DNA from: Symbiodinium sp. CCMP2592
Taxonomy: Eukaryota; Sar; Dinophyceae; Suessiales; Symbiodiniaceae
NCBI GenBank assembly: GCA_905221615.1
Contig: CAJNDT010001299.1
Span: 1-64,000 of the forward strand
Length of the DNA: 64,000 nucleotides
Direction of reading: 5' to 3'
Shown: positions 23,173-43,360 of the stretch, one piece after another
Numbering within the stretch: the stretch's first letter is position 1
How the letters are laid out: each line of letters opens with the position of its first letter
Position numbers and translations under genes: made by a program
The notes under the pieces: generated by a model
The model's input: the letters and a program-made list of their open reading frames with translations, nothing else
The model's database searches: none
What the model was told of the DNA's origin: nothing

Positions 23173-23450
23173 ACAGCAATTGTCAATGACGAGCCGATCG
23201 CCTCAGGGTCTTCACATGCACAGGGAGATATCACTAGACATAATCTAATGTCTGAGCAACATCACAAGATACGGTGTTGCGAAAAGGAACAATATAATAT
23301 AGATTCATCCCAGGGGCATGTAAGACTCTCTGTAAGCTGACCATGGAATGGAGGGTCCCAAAACCCAGAGCTTTCGGAACCATCAGTATAATCAGATTCG
23401 CTGTCCGATGATACTTCAATCTCAGCAAAGAAGCCATCATCGTCTGACTC
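23043..23450 (-). repeat. diverged tandem duplication within the RING-gene 5' region
   Basis: About 23050-23170 and 23325-23450 share GTAAGA(T/C)TCTCTG(C/T)AAGCTGA, ATGGAATG(C/G).GGGTCCCAA and CTTTCGGAACCATC, with further matches. A separate 70-bp piece at about 23168-23238 recurs at 24541-24608 (CAGCAATTGT...GCGATCGCCTCA). The duplicated ends lie where exon boundaries are expected. Confidence 0.75.
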
Positions 23451-26396: not shown

Positions 26397-26767
26397 TCAT
26401 GCATTCTTTTTGGCCCTAGGGGCCCACTCGCAAAAGCCGCGCTTGGGTTTGTGCGCCTTGGTGGCACTCTTAAACCCGCGACGCAGCTGTTCGCATGCGT
26501 CGCAGTACCGCGGGTCACTTTGCAAAAAACCTGGGTAAAGCTCGCCTTGGGCGTTCGGCTTACCCTGGTGCAGTGGAGCAAACTCTCCGGGAGGGACAAA
26601 CGGGCGGTCGTCACCGGTCTTCCGAGTTCTGGTTCTCTTCTGTCCTCCCTGCTGCTCTGGCTTGTCCTCCTTCTCCTTCACCTCTTCCGCCTTCCGCTTC
26701 CCCTTGCCCGGAAGTGCCTTTGGCAGTGCCGGGGTGGGGGGCGGCGGTGGCTCCTTCTTCGGGGAAA
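26397..26767 (-). pseudogene. 3' part of a minus-strand gene split by the LTR retrotransposon
   Basis: The C-terminal half of an interrupted protein: from the insertion site it reads SPKKEPPPPPTPALPK, a lysine/glutamate-rich disordered stretch, then DPRYCDACEQLRRGF and HKPKRGFCEWAPRAKK before a stop at 26397. C-x2-C followed by a later C suggests a small metal-binding module. The other half is at 37724-38011. Ignoring the 10.96-kb insert and one copy of the GGAAA duplication, the two halves are in the same frame. The apparent Met-Phe-Asn-Ile start at 26777 comes from LTR bases and is not native. The family is not recognised. Confidence 0.7.
26763..26767. repeat. target-site duplication (left), GGAAA
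   Basis: Five bases directly before the 5' LTR, identical to 37724-37728 directly after the 3' LTR. Five bp is the usual length for Ty1/copia integrases. Confidence 0.95.
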
Positions 26768-26945
26768 TGTTAAACATTCTGCCAGGAACAGTAACACAGC
26801 TAGTGCAGTACAGTTAATGTACAGGAACAGCCGTCACGCACACGCGACGTGCAGGCTCGAGACCCCAGGACACACCGTGCCCAGGAACAAAAGTGTCCGA
26901 CAGTCTTTGTGGGTAGGAACCCTTAGTGAAGCCCGTTCTTTAACA
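26768..26945 (+). repeat. 5' LTR (178 bp)
   Basis: Begins TGTTAAACATTCTGCC and ends CCCGTTCTTTAACA. Read against 37546-37723 I find no difference. It contains four AGGAAC hexamers. I see no clear TATA box or polyadenylation signal, as is usual in dinoflagellates. Confidence 0.97.
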
Positions 26946-29900
26946 TGGTAGCGGAGCTGCCTCCAGGAACCTCCTTGGCAGCGATGATGCTACTCGTAGC
27001 CATAGGAACCATGATGCTCGGCGCCATGGCAGTTTGCCTCGTTGCCGGATGGAAGCAGATGCGCGCAAATGAGCAGATCACCAAGAAGACAGAGACAGTG
27101 CTCAACATGCCCACGCTCAGGATCGCAGTCCGTTCAGGAACAAAGTACCACCGCAGAGGTTGTGGACACCTTCGCAACCACAACGTGACAGCAGGAAACG
27201 CGCGAGACTTTGACGCTTGCAGCGATTGCTACCCCGACCGAGTGTTGGTGGAAGAGAGAGAGAAAAGGAACATGAAGTGCTACGGTTTGGCAGCATGTAT
27301 GGTGCTGCTGGTTGGTTTCGCACTGGGAAGCCTCGCAACTTTGTGCGGGATGATCTTGGTCCCAGGAGCAGGAAGTATAGCGGTGAGACCGTGGCAGGCC
27401 CTTGGCAACAACGTGGAGACCAAGGAAGAACTTGCCCTTGGAGACGCCTTACCCTCCAAGGATGTGAGCCGTGGGAGAAAGGAACTCACTTACGTGGAGA
27501 GCGACGAGAGCGAGCTCATGGCAGTGTGGTCGAGCAGAAGGAAGCCCAATACGCACCGGAACCGCTACAGGAACTACGACGTGTACGGCGAGTACTACCA
27601 GCAAGGCTACAACGAGTGCAGCGTGAACCCCGACGGCACCAACGTGAACACGATCAGGAACACGAACGCGTACACGATTAAGGACTATGTGGAGATAGGA
27701 AAAGTCATGGTACCGTACGCTTTGTTGTGCATGAACCAAGTGATGAACGAGCTCTACAGCGTCGTTAGCGTGACCGGCGAGTACTACACGGAAGAGAACA
27801 GGAACGGCAACCAGAACACCGAGAACCAGGAGAGTGAGAGCCTTGAGTCAGGCTACGCCCCTAGGTACCTAGTAAAACAACAGCGAGAAGTACTGAGGAA
27901 AGTTGTACAGGAACATGTTCACAGTTTCGTAGAAAAGCTAGCAACCGTAGGAAAGAAGTTTCACGACGTCGTGCATGTGATAGTTCAGGAAGTCATTTCC
28001 AACAGAGTTGTATTTCAAGGAATTCGCATAGCAGTGTTCTTAGGAACCCCAATGGGACTGATTACTTGGATCACCCTGTCGTACTATTCTAGTGTGTTTT
28101 TCGCAAGAGCAAGCAACCGCTCAAAGCACCAAAGGAAGACAAGAGGAGAAAGGAGAGCACAAGCAGTGTGCAGGAAACAGTGCAAGTCGCTACTTTTAGC
28201 AGCACTAGTGTACAGCAACCTTGAAACAGCAAAAGGAATGGAGGATGCATTGAAGGCACTTGCCGAGATCAATGCACAGACTTTGCAAGGAATACAAACA
28301 CTAGCAGAGGAGATCAGGAACTCAGCAGCTTCAGGAAGTCAGAGAGAAGCAGGACTTACACAAGCATTCCAGGAAACCCTGACAGCAGTTCAGGAACAGC
28401 AGAAGACAGCGCAAACAGCGTTGGCAGACGCTCACACGAACGCAGCAACGACACTTGAGGAGATAGGAGCATCCCTGGAGAAAGCAGTAAAGGAACAAAG
28501 AAAGCCTGGAGAAGTGGAGTTGCACAAGCTGATTAAAAGCCCCGAAGCATTTTCCCCAGGAACATGGCAAGAAGAGAAGAGTGGATGGACAGAGTTCAGG
28601 AACAGGATGCGGATCTGGCTTGGAGCAGTGGATTCCAACATGGTGAAGATCATGGACATCGCAGAAAGGAACCTAAAAGATGATAAGCAAGTGAAGATGG
28701 CCGAGATGTCTACAGAAGCAAAGGAAACAAGCAGACGCCTGTACAGTGTTCTTTGTTCGTACACTAAAGGAAGGCCGTACCGAGTTGTAAAGCATGTAGC
28801 TGAGGAGAACGGTATGGAAGCTTACCGTATGCTACTCAAGGAATATCAGCCAACGAATCGTGCGAGATCGTTGGAGTTGTTTCACAACATTCTCAACTAC
28901 AAATTCGCTCACAACAAAGGAATTGCTGAGAATATCCTCGAATATGAGGAACACATCGAGAAGTACGAGAAGGCTACTGGAGAAAAGGTACAGGAGAATT
29001 TGAAAGTATCTACTCTTATTCAAGGTATGAAACCTGACGTGAAAAGGCACTTGTTGCTCAACATGGATGAGAAGACACAGTACAATACTCTTCGTCAGTA
29101 CCTTGTGAACTATGAGTCAACCGAGCGTTGGACTAACTCTTTAGCAGCCCAGCAAGGAACACCTCACCGAACCACAACAGACTTGATCGACAAAGGTGAT
29201 GACCATGGTGGTCTTGCAGCAATGGATATCAACCAAGCATGGTACAAAGGAAAGAAAGGCTATGGCAAAGGTTATGTTCACCATAAAGGCAAAGGTAAAG
29301 GAAAAGGCAAGAAAGGTGGAAAGGACTTCGGAAAAGGTTTCGGCTTTGACAGCAAAGGCAAAGGTAAAGGTAAAGGTTTCGGAGGTTTTGGCAAAGGCAG
29401 AGGTCGAGGCAACTGGAAAGGCCGAGGTAGAGGTTTCAGAGGTTACAAAGGAAAAGGCAAAGGTCGAGGAAGAGGTTTCTTCAGACACAAAGGAAAAGGT
29501 AAAGGCAAAGCCCAAGCAGCTACAGGAGTTTGTCACTACTGTCACAAGTATGGACATTTCGAAGCACAGTGTAGACAGAAAATGCGTGACATGGGTTACC
29601 AGGCCAGGAACGTTGACCTTGAAAACCAGAGCGAGCAAGCGAGCACTACAGGTACTTCTACTCAGGCCCCTTCGTCAGCCAACAAGACCTCAACAAGCCA
29701 AGCAAGCCAAGGAACCCAAAGACCAGTGATTAGGATGGTCTCCATGTATCACATGGGAGACGAGCCCACAAGCTTTCCGGAGGAATTCGCACTGAGTGAG
29801 AACTCTGAAGAGATAGAGATTGAGTACTTCGGAAGAGTTTTGCGGGTTGTTGGTGAAGAAGTTCAGGAAGAGAGGAGTGAGACAGAAGAGTTTTGGATTG

Positions 29901-32900
29901 GTGATGAAGATGATGAGTTTCAGGACTGTGATGAGGTGAGTGATGATGCATGGTGGCAATGGCATCTAGCAGGAACTCCGATAGGAACTCAGGATCGTGG
30001 ATACTACTTTGAGTGTCCCAATGGATGTCATGAAACACCGTGGCACCCAAACATGCAGGAATGTGAGAACGGATGTCACCATCCTCCTAGAAGGAACAGA
30101 GTGGAGAGAACAGCACCCTCAAGGACCATCACCAGGTTTGCACGTGCAGCAAGGAACGCAAGAACTCGAGAAATCGAGGTTGTGCTGGATTCAGGAGCCG
30201 ACATTTCGTTGGCACCGATGTGGATGAAGAAGTATGGAAGAAAGGCACCCAACACTACCAAGGTAGTTTTGCGAGATGCACAAGGATCTCGGATTAAGGT
30301 TTCAGACCAAAGGATCATTGAGGTTGAGTTTCGGGATGTTCAAGGAAACATTGTGAAGGTTGAAGAAGTGTTCTTGATTTCATCGGTTGTGCACCCTCTT
30401 TTGGCAGTAGGTAAACTGTTGAAGAAAGGCTGGGAGTTCAGAGATGGAACAGCAACAGGCACTTTCCTAACAGAAGGAACAACCAAGATCGCAGTGAACT
30501 ACAACAACAACTCACTTACAACAAAAGCCTTTGTGAGAGCAGTCAACTGGGAAGCAGAAGCAAAACCTATCCCTATGTACTTGTGCGAGAACTTAAAGGA
30601 ACTCATTGAAGAACAGCGTGTTGGTTGGACCAACTGGCGAGACCCTTACCAAGTCCACTTCAGCCTAGGAACCTCAGAACACGTTGATACTTACTTGATG
30701 TTTCCACCAGGAAAGTTCGCATATCGAGCAGTGCTTATTGAGGATGATGATCAGTGGTATCTGTTGCATCACAGCATCATGTTTGAGGAACTTGAGGAAC
30801 CGTTTGGAACAATCTTCGATGGCAGCAAAGAGTACCGCACACTTACGCTAGTATCGCTCAAGGAATTTCCACTGAACCTCATAGGCACCCCCAAGGAAGA
30901 TGAGGATCGAAAGATGTTTGAAGAGTACACTGAGGATGCATGGTCAATCAGCATGGATGGCACTACACTCACGAGGTACCACAACTCGTTGAGGAAGACT
31001 TTGTTCAATCCTCGAGATACCAATGACATTCCAGTAGACATTGGAAACCTCAAACCAGACAGGTACACGTATGGAGAAGAACCTATCAATAAGGATTTCT
31101 TTGAGGATGACAAGTTCTGGACTTTGGATGAGCCTCACAGAGACCCAGAACCACTAGGAGGTTTATCCTGGACAGGACGCAGTGTATTCGAACTCATTGA
31201 ACCAGTGAACCCCAAGGCCAGAAGACCAAAACAGAAGGTTCACCAACTGGACACAATTCCAGAACAGGAAGAAGAACAGGAAGAGACCTCAGAGGCCCAA
31301 GCACCAGCACACAGGCATGAACTTGCAGGAGAGTTGTCTTTTACATTCAACGGTCATGAGTACAATCAGCAGAACAGCCTCAAGGCCCTGAGAGAGTTGT
31401 GCAAGGAACTAGGAGTCTCAAAAGCTGGCTCTAAGCAAGAGATTCTTAGAAGGCTCAGTAGATCCATCATGGAAGCAGAAAGGCACATGGAACTTGTTTC
31501 AGGCCAGAAGAAGTACAAAGAGTTTCTAGAAGCTGAACCTCTGAAGGTACCCAAACAGCCAAAGCCGGAGGAAGTCGCAGTGCATAATCTCACACACTTA
31601 CCTTATGCATCGTGGTGTCCGACGTGTGTAGCATGCAAAGGAAAAGAGTCTCCACACCTTCGTGAGAACCCAGAGAAGGAAAGATCTTCAAGACCAACTT
31701 TCTGTATGGATTTCTGTTTTACAGGAACAAGTCATGATGAGGCACCAGCGGCAGTTAGTCTTGTGTGTGTTGATTCTTGGAGTAGGAACATGGTCTGTAT
31801 CCCGACAGCATCTAAAGGAAAAGATCTTGTAGAGCACCTTTGCGAAGGAGTGACCTACTTGAGTACTCAGCTTGGATATGGAACCATCAACTTGAAGGCA
31901 GACAATGAAGGAACAATGATGAAGCTGAAACAGGTCATCCAGAAGCAGCGAGCAGCTTTAGGTCTAGGAACAGTCTTGCAGGACGCAGTCAGTGGCCAGA
32001 AGGAAACCAACGGCATGGCAGAGAGAGCAATTCAAACCATTAGGAGACAAGGAACAACCCTGATTAGGCACCTTGAACACAGAACAGGAACATATATTGC
32101 TCATACTCATCCAATCTTCAGTTGGGCTTTCAGGCACTCGGCATGGACCTTGAACAGGTACCACCGCCATTCCTCCACAGGAATGACTCCGTATGAGTTT
32201 ATGGCAGGAAGGCCTTACGAGGGCCAACTCGCCGAATTTGGCGAATCACTTTTGGTTTTGACCAATCGTTCAGGAACACGTGCCAATAGGAAAGGTGACC
32301 CTATTTGGTTGAGAGGAGTGTTTTTAGGAAAAACAGACAACAACCTCTTCATTACGTGGCACATGGACGGCATCAAGACAAGCCGTAGCGCAAAACGTTG
32401 CGTGGAACACTTCGACGTGAAAGGAATAAGTAGCGTAGGAATTCACACTTGGGAAGTGAAGCACACTACACTGGCAACAAGGAACATTCCCAGGAAGAAT
32501 ATCCCAGGACCAATTGCAGAGGCGCCACCTGTCATGGATGGAGCAACTCAGGAACAGTCGGTCGAGGACTCGGCACCTTCCGCACCTTCAGGACCGATCG
32601 CAGGACCGATTGTCATCCAAGGCGGGGACTCTGCAGGGAAGTCAGGACCTACTAGGACAACCTACCTAGAGAGCAAAGCGAAGCAGGCACAGAGCAAGAG
32701 AAAAGCAGAAGAAGAACTTGAGCAGGAATACGACCAAAACAAACACGACGAAGCAGCTTCAGACCCAACGTCTTCTAGTAGCAGCAGTAAGGAAATGGAC
32801 GCAGCCTCAGAAGAAGAACTCATCCCAGACAGCGCAATGGCAAGTGAGCTTCTTTCAGCTAGAGGACCAGCACCTCTTAGGAAAATGGAATTTGATGATG

Positions 32901-33850
32901 TAGGAACAGGTTCCAAGATCCCGAAGATTGATTCTCCGAAGAAGAAGTACCCTCCGTTCAACGTAGGAAGAGTATTTGAGCACAATGATGAAGAACTACC
33001 TGAAGCAGAACCAGGTACAGAGGACATTTTCTGGGAAGATTCATATTCGGACATTGGCGATTCCGATGAGGAACAAGACATCTTCAAGAGCGAAGATTCT
33101 GGACCTCCAGAAGTTGCAGAAGCCCAGTTGCAGGAACTGGATCGTGAGGCAATGCTCACAGAGATCAACAGACTCACCGAGATGAAGGCACTGGCAAGGA
33201 AACCCTTGCAAGAACTCGAGAGAGAAGAGGAGAGAGAGACAGAAGAAGAAGAGAGCAACCAAGGAACAAAGTGGTTGACGACGAAATTCGTCTTCGATTG
33301 GCGATTCAGGAACGGCCGATGGATGCGGAGAGCTAGGTTAGTAGCGAGAGAGTTCAAAGGAGCAGAAGTAAGGAACGACACGTTCAGCCCAGCGACGAGC
33401 GCATCGTTGGTGAGACTTATCCCGATCTTAGGATTACAACAGGAACATTCCCTGTACTCCATTGATGTCAAGGACGCATTCTTGCAGGTCCCACAAAGGA
33501 CGCGATGTGCATGTCAATTCCCGAAGGAATATGTGGATCTGTTTGGCGACCAGGACCCTAGTTGTAGGAACGAAGGTTTGTTACTGCTTAGAGTACTTCC
33601 AGGACAGCGAGATGCAGCACTACTATGGAGTGATCATTTTGCAGGAACCCTCAAAGAGCAGAACTTTGATAGGAGCAAAGCTTGCCCTACTTTGTTTCGT
33701 GACGACAGGAACAGCATACTTGTTGTGCATGTAGATGACATTCAGGCAGCAGGGAAAACAAGGCACCTAGAGCCCAAGCTAGGAAAGCTAGGAGAAACCT
33801 ACGAACTAAAGGTTGAAGGCCCCTTCTTGACAGAGCAGGAACTTGAGTAG
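26945..33850 (+). CDS. gag-pol: copia Gag-Pol with N-terminal membrane domain, interrupted in RT
   Basis: A single 2,301-codon frame. Residues 9-35, 111-141 and about 359-388 are hydrophobic segments. Residues 57-98 resemble an Ada-type metal-binding motif (KYHRRGCGHL, ACSDCYPD). A coiled coil follows (about 430-530), then a gag region (GWTEFRNRMRIWL), a KGKGKG/RG-rich RNA-binding tract (about 775-860) and a C-x2-C-x4-H-x4-C knuckle at 863-876. The protease motif is LDSGAD at about 1081-1086. The integrase has an H/C zinc motif (HNLTHLPYASWCPTC), D1589 in CMDF, D1653 in KADNEG and E1693 in NGMAER. The RT has SIDVKDAFLQ and VVHVDDI (about 2262-2268). The frame stops at 33848-33850 before the end of RT; homology continues one frame over. 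The first ATG overlaps the LTR/primer-site junction, so a later Met or other mechanism may be used. Confidence 0.9.
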   Translation: MVAELPPGTSLAAMMLLVAIGTMMLGAMAVCLVAGWKQMRANEQITKKTETVLNMPTLRIAVRSGTKYHRRGCGHLRNHNVTAGNARDFDACSDCYPDRVLVEEREKRNMKCYGLAACMVLLVGFALGSLATLCGMILVPGAGSIAVRPWQALGNNVETKEELALGDALPSKDVSRGRKELTYVESDESELMAVWSSRRKPNTHRNRYRNYDVYGEYYQQGYNECSVNPDGTNVNTIRNTNAYTIKDYVEIGKVMVPYALLCMNQVMNELYSVVSVTGEYYTEENRNGNQNTENQESESLESGYAPRYLVKQQREVLRKVVQEHVHSFVEKLATVGKKFHDVVHVIVQEVISNRVVFQGIRIAVFLGTPMGLITWITLSYYSSVFFARASNRSKHQRKTRGERRAQAVCRKQCKSLLLAALVYSNLETAKGMEDALKALAEINAQTLQGIQTLAEEIRNSAASGSQREAGLTQAFQETLTAVQEQQKTAQTALADAHTNAATTLEEIGASLEKAVKEQRKPGEVELHKLIKSPEAFSPGTWQEEKSGWTEFRNRMRIWLGAVDSNMVKIMDIAERNLKDDKQVKMAEMSTEAKETSRRLYSVLCSYTKGRPYRVVKHVAEENGMEAYRMLLKEYQPTNRARSLELFHNILNYKFAHNKGIAENILEYEEHIEKYEKATGEKVQENLKVSTLIQGMKPDVKRHLLLNMDEKTQYNTLRQYLVNYESTERWTNSLAAQQGTPHRTTTDLIDKGDDHGGLAAMDINQAWYKGKKGYGKGYVHHKGKGKGKGKKGGKDFGKGFGFDSKGKGKGKGFGGFGKGRGRGNWKGRGRGFRGYKGKGKGRGRGFFRHKGKGKGKAQAATGVCHYCHKYGHFEAQCRQKMRDMGYQARNVDLENQSEQASTTGTSTQAPSSANKTSTSQASQGTQRPVIRMVSMYHMGDEPTSFPEEFALSENSEEIEIEYFGRVLRVVGEEVQEERSETEEFWIGDEDDEFQDCDEVSDDAWWQWHLAGTPIGTQDRGYYFECPNGCHETPWHPNMQECENGCHHPPRRNRVERTAPSRTITRFARAARNARTREIEVVLDSGADISLAPMWMKKYGRKAPNTTKVVLRDAQGSRIKVSDQRIIEVEFRDVQGNIVKVEEVFLISSVVHPLLAVGKLLKKGWEFRDGTATGTFLTEGTTKIAVNYNNNSLTTKAFVRAVNWEAEAKPIPMYLCENLKELIEEQRVGWTNWRDPYQVHFSLGTSEHVDTYLMFPPGKFAYRAVLIEDDDQWYLLHHSIMFEELEEPFGTIFDGSKEYRTLTLVSLKEFPLNLIGTPKEDEDRKMFEEYTEDAWSISMDGTTLTRYHNSLRKTLFNPRDTNDIPVDIGNLKPDRYTYGEEPINKDFFEDDKFWTLDEPHRDPEPLGGLSWTGRSVFELIEPVNPKARRPKQKVHQLDTIPEQEEEQEETSEAQAPAHRHELAGELSFTFNGHEYNQQNSLKALRELCKELGVSKAGSKQEILRRLSRSIMEAERHMELVSGQKKYKEFLEAEPLKVPKQPKPEEVAVHNLTHLPYASWCPTCVACKGKESPHLRENPEKERSSRPTFCMDFCFTGTSHDEAPAAVSLVCVDSWSRNMVCIPTASKGKDLVEHLCEGVTYLSTQLGYGTINLKADNEGTMMKLKQVIQKQRAALGLGTVLQDAVSGQKETNGMAERAIQTIRRQGTTLIRHLEHRTGTYIAHTHPIFSWAFRHSAWTLNRYHRHSSTGMTPYEFMAGRPYEGQLAEFGESLLVLTNRSGTRANRKGDPIWLRGVFLGKTDNNLFITWHMDGIKTSRSAKRCVEHFDVKGISSVGIHTWEVKHTTLATRNIPRKNIPGPIAEAPPVMDGATQEQSVEDSAPSAPSGPIAGPIVIQGGDSAGKSGPTRTTYLESKAKQAQSKRKAEEELEQEYDQNKHDEAASDPTSSSSSSKEMDAASEEELIPDSAMASELLSARGPAPLRKMEFDDVGTGSKIPKIDSPKKKYPPFNVGRVFEHNDEELPEAEPGTEDIFWEDSYSDIGDSDEEQDIFKSEDSGPPEVAEAQLQELDREAMLTEINRLTEMKALARKPLQELEREEERETEEEESNQGTKWLTTKFVFDWRFRNGRWMRRARLVAREFKGAEVRNDTFSPATSASLVRLIPILGLQQEHSLYSIDVKDAFLQVPQRTRCACQFPKEYVDLFGDQDPSCRNEGLLLLRVLPGQRDAALLWSDHFAGTLKEQNFDRSKACPTLFRDDRNSILVVHVDDIQAAGKTRHLEPKLGKLGETYELKVEGPFLTEQELE
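26946..26960 (+). promoter_or_regulatory. putative tRNA primer-binding site
   Basis: TGGTAGCGGAGCTGC immediately follows the LTR. TGG pairs with the CCA end, and TGGTAGC.GAG resembles the complement of an initiator-methionine tRNA 3' end, the usual copia primer. The first in-frame ATG uses the last LTR base plus the first two bases of this site. Confidence 0.7.
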
Positions 33851-33939
33851 GAGAGTCACACCAGACAATCCGATTCCTTAAAAGGAAATTCAGCTACCAC
33901 AATCACGAGCTCCACATCACGAGTGACCCGAAGTATCTT
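33851..33939 (+). pseudogene. frame break inside pol
   Basis: After the TAG at 33848-33850, recognisable RT-connection sequence continues in the frame that also contains the next long ORF (LKRKFSYHNHEL, SDPKYLVKL). A one-base shift right at the stop would connect them. No classical slippery heptamer or Ty1-type CTTAGGC is visible at the junction. An indel or a sequencing error is the simplest reading, given LTR identity. Confidence 0.8.
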
Positions 33940-36900
33940 GTGAAGCTTAAGGAAGAACTGAAGCTTACCAGCAAAGCCTCGAAGCCAACTCCGTGCACCC
34001 AAGAGTCGCAGGAACAGGACAACACTCAGACCTTGAACCAGGAACAAGCAGCATCGTTCAGGAAAAGCGTTGGCATACTCTTGTATGTCAGTCAGGACCG
34101 CCCTGACGTGCAGTTTGCCGTGAGAGGTTTGGCCTCCAAGATGTCGGAACCAACACATGGTTCTTGGAAACACTTAGTCCACCTAGTGCAGTACATGTCG
34201 AGAACTGAAGGATACCATTTAGTGTACAGGAAAACGCCTAGAGGACTCAGTAATCTCCATGAATCCATCAGGAATGGTAACTACGACTTTACAGGAATAA
34301 GGCCCAAGGAACACCACCTTTTGGAAGTCTTCAGCGATTCAGATTGGGCAGGAAAGAAGGACACAAGGCGCTCAACATCTTCAGGAATTGTTTGCCTAGA
34401 CGGTCAGTGCATTTACTCCTTTTCTAGGAACCAGAAGTCGGTTAGCTTGAGCAGTGGTGAAGCAGAGTACTACGCAGGAGCGTCAGCAGCGTCAGATTCT
34501 ATATTGTTGAAGGAAGCAGTAGAATTCTTGACCAGGAAACAATGCAAGGTACACTTGTACATGGATTCTTCTGCAGCTAGAGGAATTATTACAAGGCAAG
34601 GTGTAGGAAGAGTCAAGCATTTGCAGATCAGGACCCTTTTTCTTCAAGACCTCCACAAAGAAGGAACAATTAGTGTTCACCCAGTAGGAACCAAGGAAAA
34701 CACAGCCGACATAGGTACCAAGCCCCTTTCAGCGAAAAGGATCAGACTGTTGTTGCACTGGTTAGGTTTTCAAACCAGCGAGAACGAACCAGTAGGCAGA
34801 GAAGAGCTCAAGGAACACAAGGCCCAAACACAAGCTAAAGCAGTTGTAAGGATGATCAAGAGCCCAGGAACTTTGTCTTTTGCAGCTTTGTTGTTTGCAG
34901 GAATTTCAGGTATTTCAGACAGTCTTCAGATTCAGAGTTTCAAGGAACAGTGTTTTGAGAGTTGTTTTCAGGAAGAAGAGTTTCAGTCAGACTTTCAGGA
35001 ACATGTTTTCTGTTGTGCAAGTGCATGTGAGCAGGACGGCATGTGCAGTGACACGAGTGCATGTGAGCTAGGAACGTCTGCAGGAACAGCTCATGGAACA
35101 ACATGTTGTGAGATGCTTTCGCAGCTCAAGGAACTCTGCGGAACACTCGCGGAACGCTCAGGTATCCAGGAACTAGTTCGCCCGGTAGCAGAAGGTCAAG
35201 AAAACCTTCCAGGAACCTTAGCAGCCATGGAAGCAAGCGCGAGTTCGAGCAAAAGCACAGAAGAAGTGTTCAAGGAACTTTCTACCTTGAGAGAGGCGGC
35301 AACCGCCTTAAGGAACGCTTCAGAAGAAAGGAACTTGATCGCGGAGTCGATCAGGAAGAACACAGAGGAAGCTGCGCGTTTGCGCAAAAGCCAGGAACAC
35401 GTGGCTGGTTGTGTAGAGTCCTTGACAGGACAAATCTACGACGTCAAGCACCAGGTTCAGGAAATGGCCGAACAGAACGACAGAGACCGGCAACAGGTCA
35501 AGGAACACATGGCCTTCGTCCTAGGCACATGTGACGCCGTAAAGGAACAGCTGAACCAGATGATGCAGGACTTCTACGAGCAGCAAGAGGAACAAGAAGA
35601 AGAGGAAGAAGACGAAGAAGAGCAAAGGAAAAGAGAAGCCAAGGACCGAGAACTAGAAGGTGAACTACGTCGTGAAGGACACGGACAAGGAACAGCACCG
35701 TCGAGAGCTACGTCACCTACGTCCCAGGAAAGAAAGGAATATTCGGACCGAGGCTACTTCGAGGGCATCCAGGAACGAGAGCAGGACAACGAGAACGAGA
35801 ACGAGGCCTACGTCAGCAGCTACGTTGGAGGAGAAGATCCCGGGGAGTACCCCGATGAAGGAACAGCAGCAGCAGCAGAGGAAGAAGAAAGTGAGGAAGC
35901 AAAGGAAGAGAGAAGGAAGAAGAAGATCGCGGAGATCAACGCCAAAAGCAAGCAAAGACTCAAGGAAAAGGAAGAGGAGAAGAAGCTTTTTCCGTACCCC
36001 TACGACTACGCCAGCGAATGGAAGGAATACTCCGAGAACGGCGAGATCTACAGGCAACACAGAGTTACAGGAGAAAAGCAGTGGGTCGACAAGGACTACA
36101 CGTACAAGCACGAGAAGGGAACAAAAGGAAAGAAGGAAGGAAAAGGAAAAGGAAAGCCAAAGGCAAGAGCAGAAAGCACAGGATTTCGACCTCGAGATGA
36201 AGATGATCGCAAATACTGGGCAGAGCAGGACAGGATCTCAAAGGAACAAAGAGAAGCAAAAGCAAAAGCAGAAGAGGAGAAGAAAGCAAAAGAGGAGCAG
36301 ATTGCCAAAGCAAGGTTGATTCTGGAAGCGGCAGCAGACGAGCAGGAGAAGAGAGACAAGGAAGCAGCAAGGCAGGAAGCAGCCGCAGCCGCCGAGAGAA
36401 GGCGAGAGGTAGAAGCAGCAGCCAAAGCCAAAGCAGAGAGAGAAGCAAAGGAAAAGGAGGAGACCGAAGCGGCAGCAGCAAAGGAGGAAGAAGAGAAAGC
36501 AGCAGCCGCAGCAGCCAAAGAGGAAAAGGAAAGAAAGGAGCAGGAGAAGAAAAGAAAGGAGAAGGAAGCCAGGAAGAAAAGAGAGGAAGATCAAAAGGCA
36601 GCGTCAGCGTACATTGCCAAGAAGGAAGCAGAAAAGAAGGCAGCAGCAACAACAGCAACAGGATCAGGTGAAGCAGACAGGATCCAGAAGCTTGAAGAAA
36701 TGATGAAGGAGATGATGAAGGAACGCAAAGAGGATAAAGAAAGGATTGCAAGCCTTACACAGGAGCTTGAGAGCAGAGGATCAGCAGCCGGGTCGCAGGC
36801 ACCCACAGAACCTGACACAACACCAGCAAAGGAAGAGGAAAAGCCAGAAGCAAAAGGAACAGGAAAAGCAACAGGAAAGGAGCCACCGAACGTCACACAG

Positions 36901-37251
36901 CACAAGCAGAAGGAAGAAGACAAGGACGACCCAGAACTGTCCGCCAAAGGACCAGTGAACGAAGCATCGTTCATGAAAGGAAAAGGAAAAGGAGAGTTTG
37001 AAGGAAACTGGTTTGCAGTCTACAGTTTCCAGAACAGGAAATACCAGTGGAAGTGGAACGAAGCCAAGACACAGTGGTACTGGTATTCAGGATCAAAGGA
37101 AACAGGTTGGAAAGCAGCGTCAAAGGACAAGCAAGGAAAGGAAAAGTGCAAAGCGCAAGCAAAGATGAAAGAAGAGTGGCTAAAGGAACAGCTTCAAGAC
37201 CAAGAGGAAGCTAAAGACAGTGAAGAGGAAGGCAAAGTGAACTTCCAGTGA
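33940..37251 (+). CDS. copia pol C-terminus (RNase H) plus long coiled-coil/WW-like extension
   Basis: 1,103 codons; the nominal Met is probably not a true start because homology extends upstream. Residues 1-130 are RT connection (DRPDVQFAVRGLASKM). Residues about 125-275 are RNase H (FSDSDWAGKKDTRRSTSSG, SLSSGEAEYYAG, MDSSAARGI, ENTADIGTKPL). From about 277 to the end is an extra region: a cysteine-rich patch (CCASACEQDGMCSDTSACE), coiled coils, an acidic tract (EEEEEDEEEQ), a WW-like motif (EWKEYSENGEIYRQHRVTG then EKQW), a very long KE/A-rich helix, and an aromatic motif near the C-terminus (NWFAVYSFQNRKYQWKW, then WYWYSG). Extensions after RNase H are known in Sirevirus-type copia elements, but I do not recognise this one. 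Confidence 0.85.
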   Translation: MKLKEELKLTSKASKPTPCTQESQEQDNTQTLNQEQAASFRKSVGILLYVSQDRPDVQFAVRGLASKMSEPTHGSWKHLVHLVQYMSRTEGYHLVYRKTPRGLSNLHESIRNGNYDFTGIRPKEHHLLEVFSDSDWAGKKDTRRSTSSGIVCLDGQCIYSFSRNQKSVSLSSGEAEYYAGASAASDSILLKEAVEFLTRKQCKVHLYMDSSAARGIITRQGVGRVKHLQIRTLFLQDLHKEGTISVHPVGTKENTADIGTKPLSAKRIRLLLHWLGFQTSENEPVGREELKEHKAQTQAKAVVRMIKSPGTLSFAALLFAGISGISDSLQIQSFKEQCFESCFQEEEFQSDFQEHVFCCASACEQDGMCSDTSACELGTSAGTAHGTTCCEMLSQLKELCGTLAERSGIQELVRPVAEGQENLPGTLAAMEASASSSKSTEEVFKELSTLREAATALRNASEERNLIAESIRKNTEEAARLRKSQEHVAGCVESLTGQIYDVKHQVQEMAEQNDRDRQQVKEHMAFVLGTCDAVKEQLNQMMQDFYEQQEEQEEEEEDEEEQRKREAKDRELEGELRREGHGQGTAPSRATSPTSQERKEYSDRGYFEGIQEREQDNENENEAYVSSYVGGEDPGEYPDEGTAAAAEEEESEEAKEERRKKKIAEINAKSKQRLKEKEEEKKLFPYPYDYASEWKEYSENGEIYRQHRVTGEKQWVDKDYTYKHEKGTKGKKEGKGKGKPKARAESTGFRPRDEDDRKYWAEQDRISKEQREAKAKAEEEKKAKEEQIAKARLILEAAADEQEKRDKEAARQEAAAAAERRREVEAAAKAKAEREAKEKEETEAAAAKEEEEKAAAAAAKEEKERKEQEKKRKEKEARKKREEDQKAASAYIAKKEAEKKAAATTATGSGEADRIQKLEEMMKEMMKERKEDKERIASLTQELESRGSAAGSQAPTEPDTTPAKEEEKPEAKGTGKATGKEPPNVTQHKQKEEDKDDPELSAKGPVNEASFMKGKGKGEFEGNWFAVYSFQNRKYQWKWNEAKTQWYWYSGSKETGWKAASKDKQGKEKCKAQAKMKEEWLKEQLQDQEEAKDSEEEGKVNFQ

Positions 37252-37545
37252 AGCAAAGGAACCGCGAGCAGTACTGAGGCCAGAGAGCCGAGGAAAGAAG
37301 CAGCAGGACACAGGAACCGTGGCACAGCCCTTTTTGTTTCTGTGGTGATCTAGGTAAAGTGCAGGAACGTCTTTTGTACAGTCGAGCAACCTTGGAGAGG
37401 ATTGCGAGTGAACGTGCGCATACGTTTGCAATGAGGAACAGTGTTTGTTTTGCAAGTGAAAAGGAACTGCAGCGTGTTTACTGTTTGTTCAGGAAAAGTC
37501 GGAGTCACCTCAGTCGAGGAACTTTCGCTAACTCCGAAGGCGGGG
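37252..37545 (+). other. 3' untranslated region of the retrotransposon with purine tract
   Basis: 294 bases between the stop codon and the 3' LTR. They hold six AGGAAC hexamers. The last ten bases (GAAGGCGGGG) are the expected polypurine tract for plus-strand priming. Confidence 0.85.
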
Positions 37546-37723
37546 TGTTAAACATTCTGCCAGGAACAGTAACACAGCTAGTGCAGTACAGTTAATGTAC
37601 AGGAACAGCCGTCACGCACACGCGACGTGCAGGCTCGAGACCCCAGGACACACCGTGCCCAGGAACAAAAGTGTCCGACAGTCTTTGTGGGTAGGAACCC
37701 TTAGTGAAGCCCGTTCTTTAACA
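37546..37723 (+). repeat. 3' LTR (178 bp)
   Basis: Identical by eye to 26768-26945, ending TTTAACA, followed by GGAAA. Identity over 178 bp implies very recent integration. Confidence 0.97.
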
Positions 37724-37728
37724 GGAAA
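37724..37728. repeat. target-site duplication (right), GGAAA
   Basis: The match to 26763-26767. It lies within a Val-Ser codon pair of the interrupted gene. Confidence 0.95.
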
Positions 37729-38429: not shown

Positions 38430-39440
38430 GAAGAAAGTAAAGTATGACACGAATGACAAAGATGATAAGGATGACAAGGGTGATACACATAAAAAGGATG
38501 ATACACATGATAAGGATGATACAGATGTTAAGGATGCTACAGATGATAAGGATGATACAGATGATAAGGATGATACAGATGATAAGGAAGATGCAGATGA
38601 TAAGGATGATACAGATGATAAGGATGCTACAGATGATAAAGATGATACAGATGATAAGGATGATACAGATGATAAGGATGATACAGATGATAAGGATGGC
38701 ACAGATGATAAGGATGATACAGATGATAAGGATGATACAGATGATAAGGATGATACAGATGATGCGGATGGTACAGATGACAAGGATGATAAGGATGATA
38801 AAGATGATAAGGATGATAAGGATGATAAGGATGATAAGGATGATACAGATGATAAGGATGATACAGATGATAAGGATGATACAGATGGTAAGGATGATAC
38901 AGATGATAAGGATGATACAGATGATAAGGATGCTACAGATGATAAAAATGATACAGATGATAAGCATGATACAGATGATAAGGATGATACAGATGATGCG
39001 GATGGTACAGATGATAAGGATGATACAGATGATAAGGATGATACAGATGATAAGGATGATACAGATGATAAGGATGATACAGACGATGCGGATGGTACAG
39101 ATGACAAGGATGATAAGAATGATAAAGATGATAAGGATGATAAGGATGATACAGATGATAAGGATGATATAGATGATAAGGATGATACAGATGGTAAGGA
39201 TGATACAGATGATAAGGATGATACAGATGATAAGGATGATACAGATGATAAGGATGATACAGATGATGCGGATGGTACAGATGCCAATGATGATAAGGAT
39301 GATAAGGATGATACAGATGATAAGGATGATAAGGATGATACAGATGATAAGGGTGACAAGGATGATACAGATGATAAGGATGAAACAGATGATAAGATAA
39401 GGATAATAAGGATGATAAGTATGATACAGATGATAAGGAT
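38430..39440. repeat. GATGATAAG/GATGATACA satellite
   Basis: About 1 kb of an 18-bp period (GAT GAT ACA GAT GAT AAG type) with larger repeats marked by GATGCGGATGGTACAGATG at about 38761, 38994, 39086 and 39264. The plus frame reads DDTDDK without stops and several frames on both strands stay open. This is a property of the repeat and not evidence of a gene. Confidence 0.9.
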
Positions 39441-39722
39441 GATAAGGATGGAAGGCGGGAAGGCAGAGGGGCGAGTGGTGGCTGGGGGGCTGGAAGCGCG
39501 GGTCAAAGGAAGGTGAGGAGGGTGGTGGAGGGGTGAGGGTGAAGATGTGCTGGGGGCAGGGTGAAAGGGATGGGGATGCAGGGAGAAGGCAGGAAAGAGA
39601 GGGAGGGCAGGGAAGGGCAGGAAACGAGGAGGGAGGAAGGGAGGGAGGAAGGGAGAGGGGGGGTGAGGGGAGGGAGGGAGGGTGAGGGGAGGGAGGCAGG
39701 AGGGGAGGGAGAGGGAGGGATC
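39440..39722. repeat. GA-rich polypurine tract
   Basis: The plus strand is over 85% purine, with GGGAGGGAGGAAGGG-type runs densest at 39590-39720. It is complementary in kind to the pyrimidine run at 40556-40635. Confidence 0.9.
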
Positions 39723-40304
39723 GATAGCACCAAATTTTCGGAAGGGGCTCCTTTCAGAAAATTTGGTGCTATCGAACCGCGCCTTGGAAAACACACCGGT
39801 TCGATAGCACCAAATTTTCTGAAAGGAGCCGCTTCCGCAAATTTGGTGCTATCGAACCGCGCCTTTTGTAAAACACAGCGGTTCGATAGCACCAAATTTT
39901 CGGAAGCGGCTCCTTTCAGACAATTTGGTGCTATCGAACCGCGCCTTGTAAAACACAGCGGTTCGATAGCATCAAATTTTCTCAAAGGAGCCGCTTCCGA
40001 AAATTTGGTGCTATCGAACCGCGCCTTTTGTAGAACACAGCGGTTCGATAGCACCAAATTTTCGGAAGCGGCTCCTTTCAGAAATTTTGGTGCTATCGAA
40101 CCGCGCCTCGTAAAACACAGCGGTTCGATAGCACCAAATTTTCGGAAGCGGCTCCTTTCAGAAAATTTGGTGCTATCGAACAGCGCCTTGGAAAACACAG
40201 CGGTTCGATAGCACCAAATTTTCGGAAGCGGCTCTTTTCAGAAAATTTGGTGCTATCGAACCGCGCCTTGGAAAACACAGCGGTTCGATAGCATCAAATT
40301 TTCG
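39720..40304. repeat. 80-bp hairpin satellite, seven units plus a truncated one
   Basis: Units start at about 39720, 39798, 39880, 39960, 40042, 40122, 40202 and 40282 (truncated). Each is an approximately 60-bp inverted repeat with arms TCGATAGCACCAAATTTT and its complement AAAATTTGGTGCTATCGA, around a 16-19-base core, then a spacer GCGCCTT..(A)AAACACA. The core is GGAAGCGGCTCC in some units and its reverse GGAGCCGCTTCC in others. Open frames on both strands (e.g. GSIAPNFLKGA) are repeat artefacts. Confidence 0.95.
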
Positions 40305-40636: not shown

Positions 40637-43360
40637 GTGAAAAAAATTTAAATAATTTAAATAAATCAAATAATTTAAATAATTTAAATATTTAAAATAT
40701 TCAAAAAAAAACAAACATTTAAATTATTTAAATTATTTTGTCAAGGAAATAATTTAAATAATTTAAATACGGCTGTCACATTTGGCTAAAAGGTTTCCCC
40801 CCTATTTAAATAATTTAAGTATTTTAAATAATTTCAATAAGCCGTATTTAATTTATTTAAATTATTTAACTTATTTTGTAAAGGAAATAATTTGAATAAT
40901 TTAAATAGTTAAATCATTTAAAATATTTACATTATTTAAATTATTCAAATTATTTAAATTATTGAAATAGTCCTGGAAAGGTTGTTTTAGGATAGCTAAC
41001 TAACTATTTAAATTATTTAAATCATTTGAATTATTTTGTCAAGGAAATATTTTAAATAATTTAAATACGGCTGTCACATTTGGTTAGAAGGTTTCCACCT
41101 TATTTAAATAATTTAAATAAGCTGTATTTAATTTATTTAAATTATTTAAATTATTTTGTACAGGAAATATTTTAAATAATTTAAATAATTTAAATACGGC
41201 TGTCACATTTGGTTAGAAGGTTTCCACCCTATTTAAATAATTTCAATAATTTAAATAATTTAAATATTTTAAATAATTTAAATAAGCTGTATTTAATTTA
41301 TTTAAATTATTTAAATTATTTTGTAAAGGAAATAATTTAAATAATTTAAATATTTAAATCATTTAAAATATTTAAATTATTTGAATTATTTAAATTATTT
41401 AAATTATTTAAATAGTCCTGGAAAGGTTGCTTTAGGATAGCTAACTAACTATTTAAATTATTTAAATTATTTTGTCAAGGAAATATTTTAAATAATTTAA
41501 ATAATTTAAATACGGCTGTCACATTTGGTTAGAAGGTTTCCCCCCTATTTAAATAATTTAAATAATTTAAATATTTTAAATAATTTAAATAATTTAAATA
41601 AGCCGTATTTAATTTATTTAAATTATTTAAATTATTTTGTAAAGGAAATAATTTAAATAATTTAATTATTTAAATCATTTAAAATATTTACATTATTTAG
41701 ATTATTTAAATTATTTAAATTATTTAAATAGTCCTGGAAAGGTTGTTTTAGGAAAGCTAACTAACTATTTTAAATTATTTAAATTATTTAAATTATTTTG
41801 TCAAAGAAATATTTTAAATAATTTAAATACGGCTGTCACATTTGGTTAGAAGGTTTCCAAATAATTTAAATAATTTAAATATTTTAAATAATTTAAATAA
41901 TTTAAATAAGCCGTATTTAATTTATTTAAATTATTTAAATTATTTTGTAAAGGAAATAATTTAAATAATTTAAATATTTAAATCATTTAAAATATTTACA
42001 TTATTTAGATTATTTAAATTATTTAAATTATTTAAATAGTCCTGGAAAGGTGTTTTAGGAAAGCTAACTAACTATTGAAATTATTTAAATTATTTAAATT
42101 ATTTTGTCAAAGAAATATTTTAAATAATTTAAATACGGCTGTCACATTTGGTTAGAAGGTTTCCACCCTATTTAAATAATTTAAATAATTTAAATATTTT
42201 AAATAATTTAAATAATTTAAATAAATAAGCCGTATTTAATTTATTTAAATTATTTAAATTATTTTGTAAAGGAAATAATTTAAATAATTTAAATATTTAA
42301 ATCATTTAAAATATTTACATTATTTAGATTATTTAAATTATTTAAATTATTTAAATAGTCCTGGAAAGGTTGTTTTAGGAAAGCTAACTAACTATTTTAA
42401 TTATTTAAATTATTTAAATTATTTTGTCAAAGAAATATTTTAAATAATTTAAATAATTTAAATACGGCTGTCACATTTGGTTAGAAGGTTTCCCCCCTTA
42501 TTTAAATAATTTAAATAGTTCAAATATTTTAAATAATTTAAATAATTTAAATAAGCCGTATTTAATTTATTTAAATTATTTAAAGGAAATAATTTAAATA
42601 ATTTAAATATTTAAATCATTTAACATATTTAAATTATTTGAATTATTTAAATTATTCAAATTATTTAAATAGTCCTGGAAAGGTTGTTTTAGGAAAGCTA
42701 ACTAACTATTTTAATTATTTAAATTATTTAAATTATTTTGTTAAGGAAATATTTTAAATAATGTAAATAATTTAAATACGGCTGCACATTTGGTTAGAAG
42801 GTTTCCACCCTATTTAAATAATTTAAATAATTTAAATAATTTAAATATTTTAAATAATTTAAATAAGCTGTATTTAATTTATTTAAATTATTTAAATTAT
42901 TTTGTAAAGGAAATAATTTAAATAATTTAAATATCTAAAATATGTAAATTATTTAAATTATTTAAATTATTTACATTATTTAAATTATTTAAATAGTCCT
43001 GGAAAGGTTGTTTTAGGATAGCTAACTAACTATTCAAAGTATTTAAATTATTTAGATTATTTTTTAACGGAAATAATGTAAATAATTTAAATAATTTAAA
43101 TAGGCTGTATTTAATTTATTTAAATTATTTAAATCATTTTTTACAGGAAATAATTTAAATAATTTAAATTATTAAATTATTTGAAAAAATTTCTTTTGAA
43201 ACATATTTTAATTAATTAAAATATTTTAAATAAGCCAAATTTAATTTATTTAAATTATTTAAATTATTTTGTAAAGGAAATAATTTAAACAATATAAATA
43301 TTTAAACTATTTAAAATATTTAAATTATTTAAAATATTTAATTTCATATTCATATATATA
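40637..43360. repeat. AT-rich higher-order satellite, about 315-bp period
   Basis: Built from AATTATTTAAAT/ATTTAAATAATT modules. Each higher-order unit carries non-AT landmarks: TAGTCCTGGAAAGGTTGTTTTAGG and GCTAACTAACTA, then ACGGCTGTCACATTTGGTTAG and GGTTTCC, then AAGC(C/T)GTATTTAATTTATTTAA and TTTTGTAAAGG. TCCTGGAAAGG lies at about 40971, 41416, 41732, 42040, 42359, 42673 and 42997. The first spacing is longer (445) and the rest are 308-324. Confidence 0.95.

Follow-up and report, generated by a model that had tools for sequence, protein, structure and literature searches.

Strand-specific arrays of short, family-specific words in copia retrotransposons of Symbiodinium: a candidate mark on element RNA

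Little is understood so far of how a long terminal repeat (LTR) retrotransposon picks out its own RNA from the RNAs of the host. Ty1 and Ty3 are LTR retrotransposons whose Gag selects the element's own RNA; in Ty3 a single CCHC knuckle is critical and the basic region also matters for RNA packaging, and the part of the source drawn on here mentions no word array (PMC4974528). For small RNA viruses, short degenerate RNA words have been proposed to let the coat protein select its own RNA (PMC6475782). A further relative is found in bacterial DNA: the uptake sequences of Neisseriaceae, 10-mers scattered over whole chromosomes that ComP recognizes in double-stranded DNA during transformation, form dialects (PMC3630211). 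Copia-type elements are the most abundant retrotransposons in Symbiodinium, and motif arrays are not mentioned in the part of that account used here (PMC5890265). The present study concerns a stretch of 64,000 nucleotides of Symbiodinium sp. CCMP2592 (assembly GCA_905221615.1, contig CAJNDT010001299.1, positions 1 to 64,000; hereafter the window), which contains a copia element that repeats the hexamer AGGAAC on one strand from LTR to LTR. Other copia families of the same genome repeat other words. Like the uptake dialects, these short words lie far above chance in coding and non-coding sequence and differ by lineage; unlike them, they measure 4-6 nt, keep to one strand, sit in retrotransposons and have candidate readers only (PMC3630211). 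In the open-access literature no description of such arrays was found (a subscription paper could exist), and we regard it as a new kind of pattern.

Across the element (26768-37723) AGGAAC occurs 93 times on the forward strand and its reverse complement GTTCCT not once; the remaining 53 kb of the window hold 13 and 10, respectively. An earlier note, made by eye from the letters of this DNA, had proposed an AGGAAC array of this kind. Its counts of 20 sites in 26768-28800, 35 in 33900-37545, four in each 178-bp LTR and six in the 3' untranslated region (UTR; 294 nt) are exact, and the array ends at the element borders as it had said, with the nearest outside sites at 23285 and 45384. All three codon phases are used, with phase 0/1/2 counts of 16/14/20 in open reading frame (ORF) 1 and 3/17/9 in ORF2. 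The claim that protein coding cannot explain the array is borne out by the presence of the word in LTRs and UTR and by 500 synonymous-codon shuffles, which gave 15.3±3.0 sites in ORF1 (maximum 24, real 50) and 12.8±2.7 in ORF2 (maximum 21, real 29), the excess appearing in every phase and being weakest in phase 0 of ORF2 (3 vs 1.4). Dinucleotide shuffles of the element (200) reached 7.5±2.7 and at most 17, and in a tally of all hexamers against such shuffles AGGAAC has the largest excess. Site density is 20-23 per kb in the LTRs and the 3' UTR vs 7-9 per kb in the ORFs, and of the 16 AGGAA that these non-coding parts contain, 14 continue with C. Overlapping purine words (AAGGAA, CAGGAA, AGGAAA) are enriched as well.

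Neither the shuffles nor the sampled genome stretches reproduce this count, so that the observation withstands both refuting conditions named in the earlier note. In twenty 10-kb stretches taken at a fixed position on other contigs of the 1.098-Gb genome (5383 contigs), AGGAAC runs at about 0.3 per kb per strand in 19; the twentieth (L028) contains another copy of the window element. Beside that copy, at L028:1-1642, stands a diverged, decayed copia remnant without AGGAAC. Another background stretch, L020, is rich in TTCTT/CTTTC with strong one-strand words, has no copia match and no long frame of that kind, and may be simple-sequence DNA. The window family is young: the best 40 of 578 candidates scored for its LTR are all 100% identical, and it is the 98-100% identity of all of the best 150 of 3132 scored for its reverse transcriptase that indicates youth. 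A search for relatives in the viral_contigs, genome_contigs and plasmids collections found none.

The earlier note had advised repeating the count in related copia families. A Pfam RVT_2 search of the genome was made (best 150 of 5766 candidates scored), and about 3 kb were fetched around 12 matches, a non-random choice made for high score, variety and an open frame. By reverse-transcriptase identity these loci form nine families (99% pairs L029/L031, L030/L034 and L036/L039; singly L032, L033, L035, L037, L038 and L040, with L038 and L040 90% alike). AGGAAC as a common word did not survive this comparison, there being 0-4 per 3 kb vs 26 in the matching window stretch; an array of a different word was found instead in four of the nine, always in the sense direction: ACTTT in L029/L031, ACTTC in L033, ATTG (mostly CATTG or GATTG) in L030/L034 and AGGGT in L032. 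A cross-table of families and words shows each array family to be rich in its own word only. Since the words were picked after inspection, the top pentamer of 11 sequences was compared with the tops of five shuffled versions of each: the real z scores are 12.2 (ACTTC), 10.5 (AGGAA), 10.5 (ACTTT), 7.0 (AGGGT) and 6.7 (CATTG), and none of the 55 shuffled tops exceeds 5.3. Two loci, L036 and L039, lie at the border (z 5.5 each, with differing tops GCTTG and AAGAA), and L035, L037, L038 and L040 show no array (top-pentamer z 3.3-4.7); rare hexamers in array-less families reach z 5-6 on counts of 3-5. L036 and L039 may carry a weak sense array of GCTTG (7.5 and 6.5 per kb vs 0.3 and 1.0 antisense).

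The array families are not close kin. The window reverse transcriptase is 26-30% identical to those of the families with which it aligned and found no match in L035, L038 or L040; identity among the ACTTC, ACTTT and ATTG families is 47-57%, and the AGGGT family is closest to L036/L039 (56%). Arrays are thus present in at least three distant lineages. Four of the families were walked outward by fetching neighbouring pieces, namely C331 (ACTTC), C4445 (ACTTT), C1306 (ATTG) and C3979 (AGGGT). In the pol alignment the number of word columns in common is 4 for C331 and C4445 (from 46 and 35; 0.6 expected), 8 for C331 and C1306 (from 46 and 74; 1.6 expected) and 1 for C4445 and C1306 (1.0 expected), and so few shared columns indicate that the arrays were mostly, not wholly, built apart.

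Sense and antisense totals over the fetched pieces are 181/3 (ACTTC), 147/5 (ACTTT), 242/23 (ATTG) and 70/1 (AGGGT). C331 has identical LTRs of ~179 bp with 7 ACTTC and none antisense, C4445 identical LTRs of ~185 bp with 5 ACTTT and none antisense, and C3979 LTRs of 388 bp (99% identical). For C1306 the LTR matched over 64 bp only and ATTG-rich sequence continues beyond, so that its 3' border is not fixed. Outside the elements the words fall away, with ACTTC sense/antisense counts of 0/0 in 852 bp upstream and 3/4 in 2090 bp downstream of C331, and ACTTT counts of 0/1 in 733 bp upstream and 2/0 in 1694 bp downstream of C4445. Coding pieces carry far more words than their synonymous shuffles: AGGAA 189 vs 94.3 (z 12.6), ACTTC 161 vs 55.7 (z 22.6), ACTTT 125 vs 44.3 (z 18.2), CATTG 88 vs 35.8 (z 11.1) and AGGGT 63 vs 27.0 (z 8.8). 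This excess holds in all phases in the five families; the reverse complements fall slightly short of the expected number in four of them (z -1.6 to -2.0), and that of ACTTT matches it (z 0.1). Word density peaks outside conserved coding sequence, with ACTTC per kb in C331 at 57.1 in the 3' UTR, 40.1 in an extra 3' ORF, 39.1 in the LTR and 16.4 in pol, and ACTTT in C4445 at 37.7, 29.4, 27.0 and 12.3.

The words occupy a large part of the places that the proteins allow. ACTTC stands at 160 of 198 such sites (81%, the highest value), followed by ACTTT (125/165), AGGAAC (79/114), ATTG (221/322), CATTG (87/151) and AGGAA (189/331); the median pentamer, tallied in three families, uses 7-8%. ACTTC and ACTTT stand alone among pentamers in this respect, and in the window family overlapping pentamers come near AGGAA (AAGGA 54%, GGAAC 54%, CAGGA 53%). 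Spacing was assessed by the coefficient of variation of word gaps in comparison with 1000 random subsets of allowed sites. The real values are 0.56 vs 0.79 for ACTTC, 0.65 vs 0.87 for ACTTT, 0.58 vs 0.87 for ATTG and 0.76 vs 0.99 for AGGAA, and none of the 1000 subsets is as even as any of these four.

The arrays have also reshaped proteins. ACTTC encodes TS or [NDHY]F in two phases and ACTTT encodes T[FL] or [NDHY]F. In the 3' ORF of C331 the ACTTC residue pairs number 33 vs 7.0 in shuffled protein, in that of C4445 the ACTTT residue set 27 vs 8.3, and in that of C1306 the ATTG residue set 10 vs 4.7. Each of the 14 relatives of the C331 protein found in the database favours TS (z 1.8-8.0) but not TF/TL, for which z runs from -2.5 to -0.6 with P0093 (1.5) as the one exception. 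The ten relatives of the C4445 protein all show the opposite preference, for TF/TL (z 2.5-5.2) and not TS (z -1.7 to 0.8), so that the ACTTC and ACTTT types remain separate. Relative P0082, 53% identical to the C331 protein, keeps 16 of its 33 imprint sites and yet has 29 in total, hence the places turn over while the density stays. For the window family, AGGAAC-coded residues were counted against shuffled proteins in all 79 relatives of the reverse transcriptase: 175 vs 57.1 at 75% identity or more (27 proteins), 33 vs 9.8 at 60-75% (5), 32 vs 21.8 at 50-60% (9), 33 vs 29.1 at 40-50% (16) and 71 vs 55.5 below 40% (22). All 32 relatives with at least 60% identity exceed their own shuffled mean, and the binned counts show a dialect that is strong to about 60% identity and fades beyond. 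The relatives in these comparisons are related to one another and therefore non-independent; the few with an organism name (P0089, P0093, P0103) are Symbiodinium.

Between copies of the window element the word changes less than its surroundings. Set against the window copy, nine others show changes at 1 of 1116 AGGAAC positions, 14 of 1256 positions of AGGAA not followed by C and 214 of 19400 other positions. With two more diverged copies added and words of either copy masked, the values are 8/1458 for AGGAAC and 407/26438 for the rest; here the change ratio of AGGAAC is 0.36 (5 distinct sites), that of AGGAA[AGT] 1.39 and the median of 75 other hexamers 1.35, all for copies that share history, so that changes are non-independent.

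The window element itself is a Ty1/copia LTR retrotransposon by its RVT_2 domain, its TG...CA LTRs and its short target duplication (Table 1). A frame break splits ORF1 from ORF2 in this copy; other copies have one long open frame, in many of them ~3440 amino acids (aa). The RVT_2 match exceeds the curated cut-off; the Pfam search of ORF1 found no integrase, an integrase-like stretch before the reverse transcriptase being seen by eye only, and ORF2 has no Pfam match. Gag contains a GK-rich basic stretch and, by eye, a CCHC-like knuckle whose Pfam zinc-finger match is non-significant (E 0.95); in all four other walked families the Gag knuckle matches Pfam, one just under the cut-off. An extra 3' ORF is present in the ACTTC, ACTTT and ATTG families, the kinship of the three being judged by eye. 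Its pieces in C331 and C1306 have no Pfam match, and the 3' extension of the window element differs from it. In each of the four other walked families a string near-identical to TGGTAGCGGAGC, which would pair with a tRNA, likewise comes after the 5' LTR, and the 3' UTR of the window element ends with a purine-rich run (37536-37545). The resemblance of the target duplication to the motif, pointed out in the earlier note, is probably due to chance because such a duplication is host sequence copied at insertion; TTGTC, GTTTG and GACGG, read by eye in three other families, are unlike their words.

Table 1. Features of the window element, with positions of the spliced-leader string in LTRs.
Feature	Position	Strand	Basis or remark
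Target-site duplication GGAAA	5' copy 26763..26767, 3' copy 37724-37728	unstranded	read in sequence
5' LTR, 178 bp, TG...CA	26768..26945	+	repeat identical to 3' LTR
AGGAAC array	26784..37698	+	first site 26784, last site 37693; 93 sense, 0 antisense
ORF1, 2301 aa	26945..33847	+	50 AGGAAC
ORF1 order: N-terminal hydrophobic part, Gag, SAP-like stretch, reverse transcriptase	26945..33847	+	translation
Primer-binding-site-like TGGTAGCGGAGC, adjoins 5' LTR	26946..26957	+	read in sequence
CCHC-like knuckle in Gag, candidate reader	29531..29581 (approximate)	+	by eye in translation
Reverse transcriptase, Pfam RVT_2 (PF07727), ORF1 residues 2108-2272	33266..33760	+	E 4.5e-09
ORF2, 1103 aa, with RNase H-like start (by eye) followed by long charged 3' extension	33940..37248	+	29 AGGAAC
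3' untranslated stretch, 294 nt	37252..37545	+	6 AGGAAC (20.4 per kb), counted
3' LTR, 178 bp	37546..37723	+	identical to 5' LTR
Spliced-leader 3' end in LTRs	window 26854 and 37632; L041:932; L051:338		
Spliced-leader 3' end in LTRs	L044 784; L052 947	reverse	

Some further features were observed in passing. The start of ORF1 (26945-28200) encodes several hydrophobic stretches ahead of Gag (by eye), which is unusual for copia. The LTRs of these families contain the 3' end of the dinoflagellate spliced leader, GGCTCAAG, in the window LTR as GGCTCGAG; the string occurs 16 times on both strands of 190 kb of background, and possibly a trans-spliced leader forms the 5' end of the RNA and the LTR copy serves the first strand transfer. 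Next to the element, at 38453-39450, a 9/18-bp unit (ATGATAAGG...) is repeated in tandem and leaves several reading frames open. Elsewhere in the window, 39721-40304 consists of ~80/162-bp tandem units with internal inverted pieces (AAATTTTCGG.../...GAAAATTTGGTGC), and 40641-43341 is an island of 12-20% G+C in a genome of 50%, made of TATTTAAAT units arranged in higher-order repeats of ~316 bp.

Among the meanings offered in the earlier note, that of a signal spread along the RNA and recognized by an RNA-binding protein is still the best reading; what had to be given up is AGGAAC as such, since other families use other words. We propose that the arrays are a dispersed, family-specific mark carried by the element's RNA: an RNA-binding protein that the element encodes would read it, and particles would thereby take up their own RNA. 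We give this proposal an even chance of being right. The words are indifferent to frame, sense-directed, family-specific, denser where coding imposes no constraint and run from LTR to LTR, which points to recognition of the element's own RNA by a factor that varies between families. The near-total sense bias favours single-stranded RNA (or cDNA) as the substrate, as a direction-blind binder of duplex DNA would ignore the strand, and since the words differ between families, readers linked to the family are favoured over a single reader supplied by the host or a general splicing mark. Nothing that specifically supports the splicing idea turned up, and no direct test of it was made.

Each array-bearing family repeats its own word of 4-6 nt along the whole transcript, on average about once per 35-125 nt, with the reverse complement hardly used. 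In the proposed scenario the word would be bound by a protein that the family itself encodes, most likely the basic region and CCHC knuckle of Gag, otherwise the protein of the extra 3' ORF. Such binding would single out the element's RNA from those of the host and of rival elements, for assembly into particles and for reverse transcription. Copies richer in words would be copied more often, so that the array would grow by drive until protein coding halts it, and the word would change when the specificity of the reader changes. Uptake words of Neisseriaceae are likewise thought to be built by biased processing and limited by coding (PMC3630211). As in dispersed packaging signals, short words are repeated on the strand that would be packaged; viral signals are few and structured, whereas here dozens to hundreds of linear words show no structural preference that could be found (PMC6475782).

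Several observations weigh against this proposal. The array is absent in four of the nine sampled families and borderline in one, so it is not required by every copia element here, and the AGGGT family is weaker than the others, with 38% site use (63/166) and one site in its 388-bp LTR. Against the same 1000 allowed-site subsets, AGGAAC, CATTG and AGGGT are no more evenly spaced than chance. Predicted RNA accessibility of the word sites equals that of shuffled surroundings in four of five families (four shuffles each), with C331 slightly raised (0.210 vs 0.167-0.185); presentation of the words in recurrent hairpin loops is thus not indicated. In the larger comparison of copies, five of the 75 other hexamers (CCAGGA, CAGGAC, CAAGCA, CAAAAG, AAGGAA) change less than AGGAAC. 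In other family pairs the conservation is weaker or absent (ACTTT 3/210 changed vs 102/2841; ATTG 4/337 vs 45/2716), and GATTG changes more than its surroundings (4/116 vs 45/2937). Finally, in satellite tobacco necrosis virus, a plant satellite virus, dispersed packaging signals found no support in vivo (PMC6475782), and the packaging information of Ty1 lies within ~580 nt of the 5' end, much internal sequence being dispensable (PMC4974528).

The strongest competitor, in our view unlikely, is that a host factor reads the words on RNA, be it for export, protection from silencing or a block of splicing or of premature polyadenylation, with words that differ by family. Arrays on the RNA strand through all element parts, free of long gaps in three families, would suit such a factor; a common host need, however, predicts a common word, and the words differ, some families have none, and host background and window flanks hold at most ~1-2 per kb of such words on either strand. 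Less likely still is a mark at the DNA level, read in the integrated copy or the cDNA by an element protein such as integrase or by a directional DNA-tracking enzyme and serving, for example, the avoidance of self-insertion or cDNA protection. Array borders that coincide with element borders, and LTRs that are included, agree with it, and family-specific readers fit as well, but the near-total strand asymmetry would be unexpected for a double-strand binder unless directional, and the avoidance of reverse complements is mild. It is improbable that the words aid reverse transcriptase or recombination among packaged RNAs by pausing or strand transfer, on RNA or on minus-strand cDNA, which fits the same sequence evidence, sense RNA and minus-strand cDNA being indistinguishable here. 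That the arrays are an artefact of mutation or composition (through codon usage, richness in purines, biased errors of reverse transcription or base editing) is hardly tenable: the window element is A-rich (33%) and depleted of GGG (30 vs 228 expected), which indicates some purine bias, and AGGGA is depleted too (3 vs 35 expected), but synonymous and dinucleotide shuffles fail to reproduce the counts, elements with an ordinary base composition have differing words, the imprints of ACTTC and ACTTT persist despite site turnover, and AGGAAC is conserved between copies where AGGAA with another next base is not.

Other candidates can be set aside more briefly. One host-wide word is rejected by the other words of other families, and an element-encoded antisense guide RNA is unlikely as the complement is absent from the window element. 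Methylation of adenosine at N6 takes place at the consensus DRACH; AGGAAC fits it, but ATTG and AGGGT contain no AC, and the base before ACTTC (C 61, A 55, G 46, T 19) shows no purine preference, which also speaks against DRACH as a common basis. DNA uptake words occur on both DNA strands; the words described here lie almost exclusively on the message strand and are not of that kind.

Taken further, the arrays may be dialects: within one dinoflagellate genome the RNA of each such family would be filled with its own word of 4-6 nt, which a protein of that family reads, and the array would grow by drive until it reshapes the family's proteins. We hold this wider view tentatively, as somewhat less probable than the RNA mark itself. 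Candidate recognition words can be read from sequence, differ by family and come each with candidate readers, so that specificity is testable by swaps of reader and word. The family word also offers a new way of sorting retroelement families. The 3' ORF of C331 suggests that a signal at the level of RNA can be so strong as to determine a large part of a protein sequence, which changes the reading of codon use and protein evolution in mobile elements. If the dialect view is true, a change of dialect would isolate selfish elements as uptake-sequence dialects isolate bacterial species.

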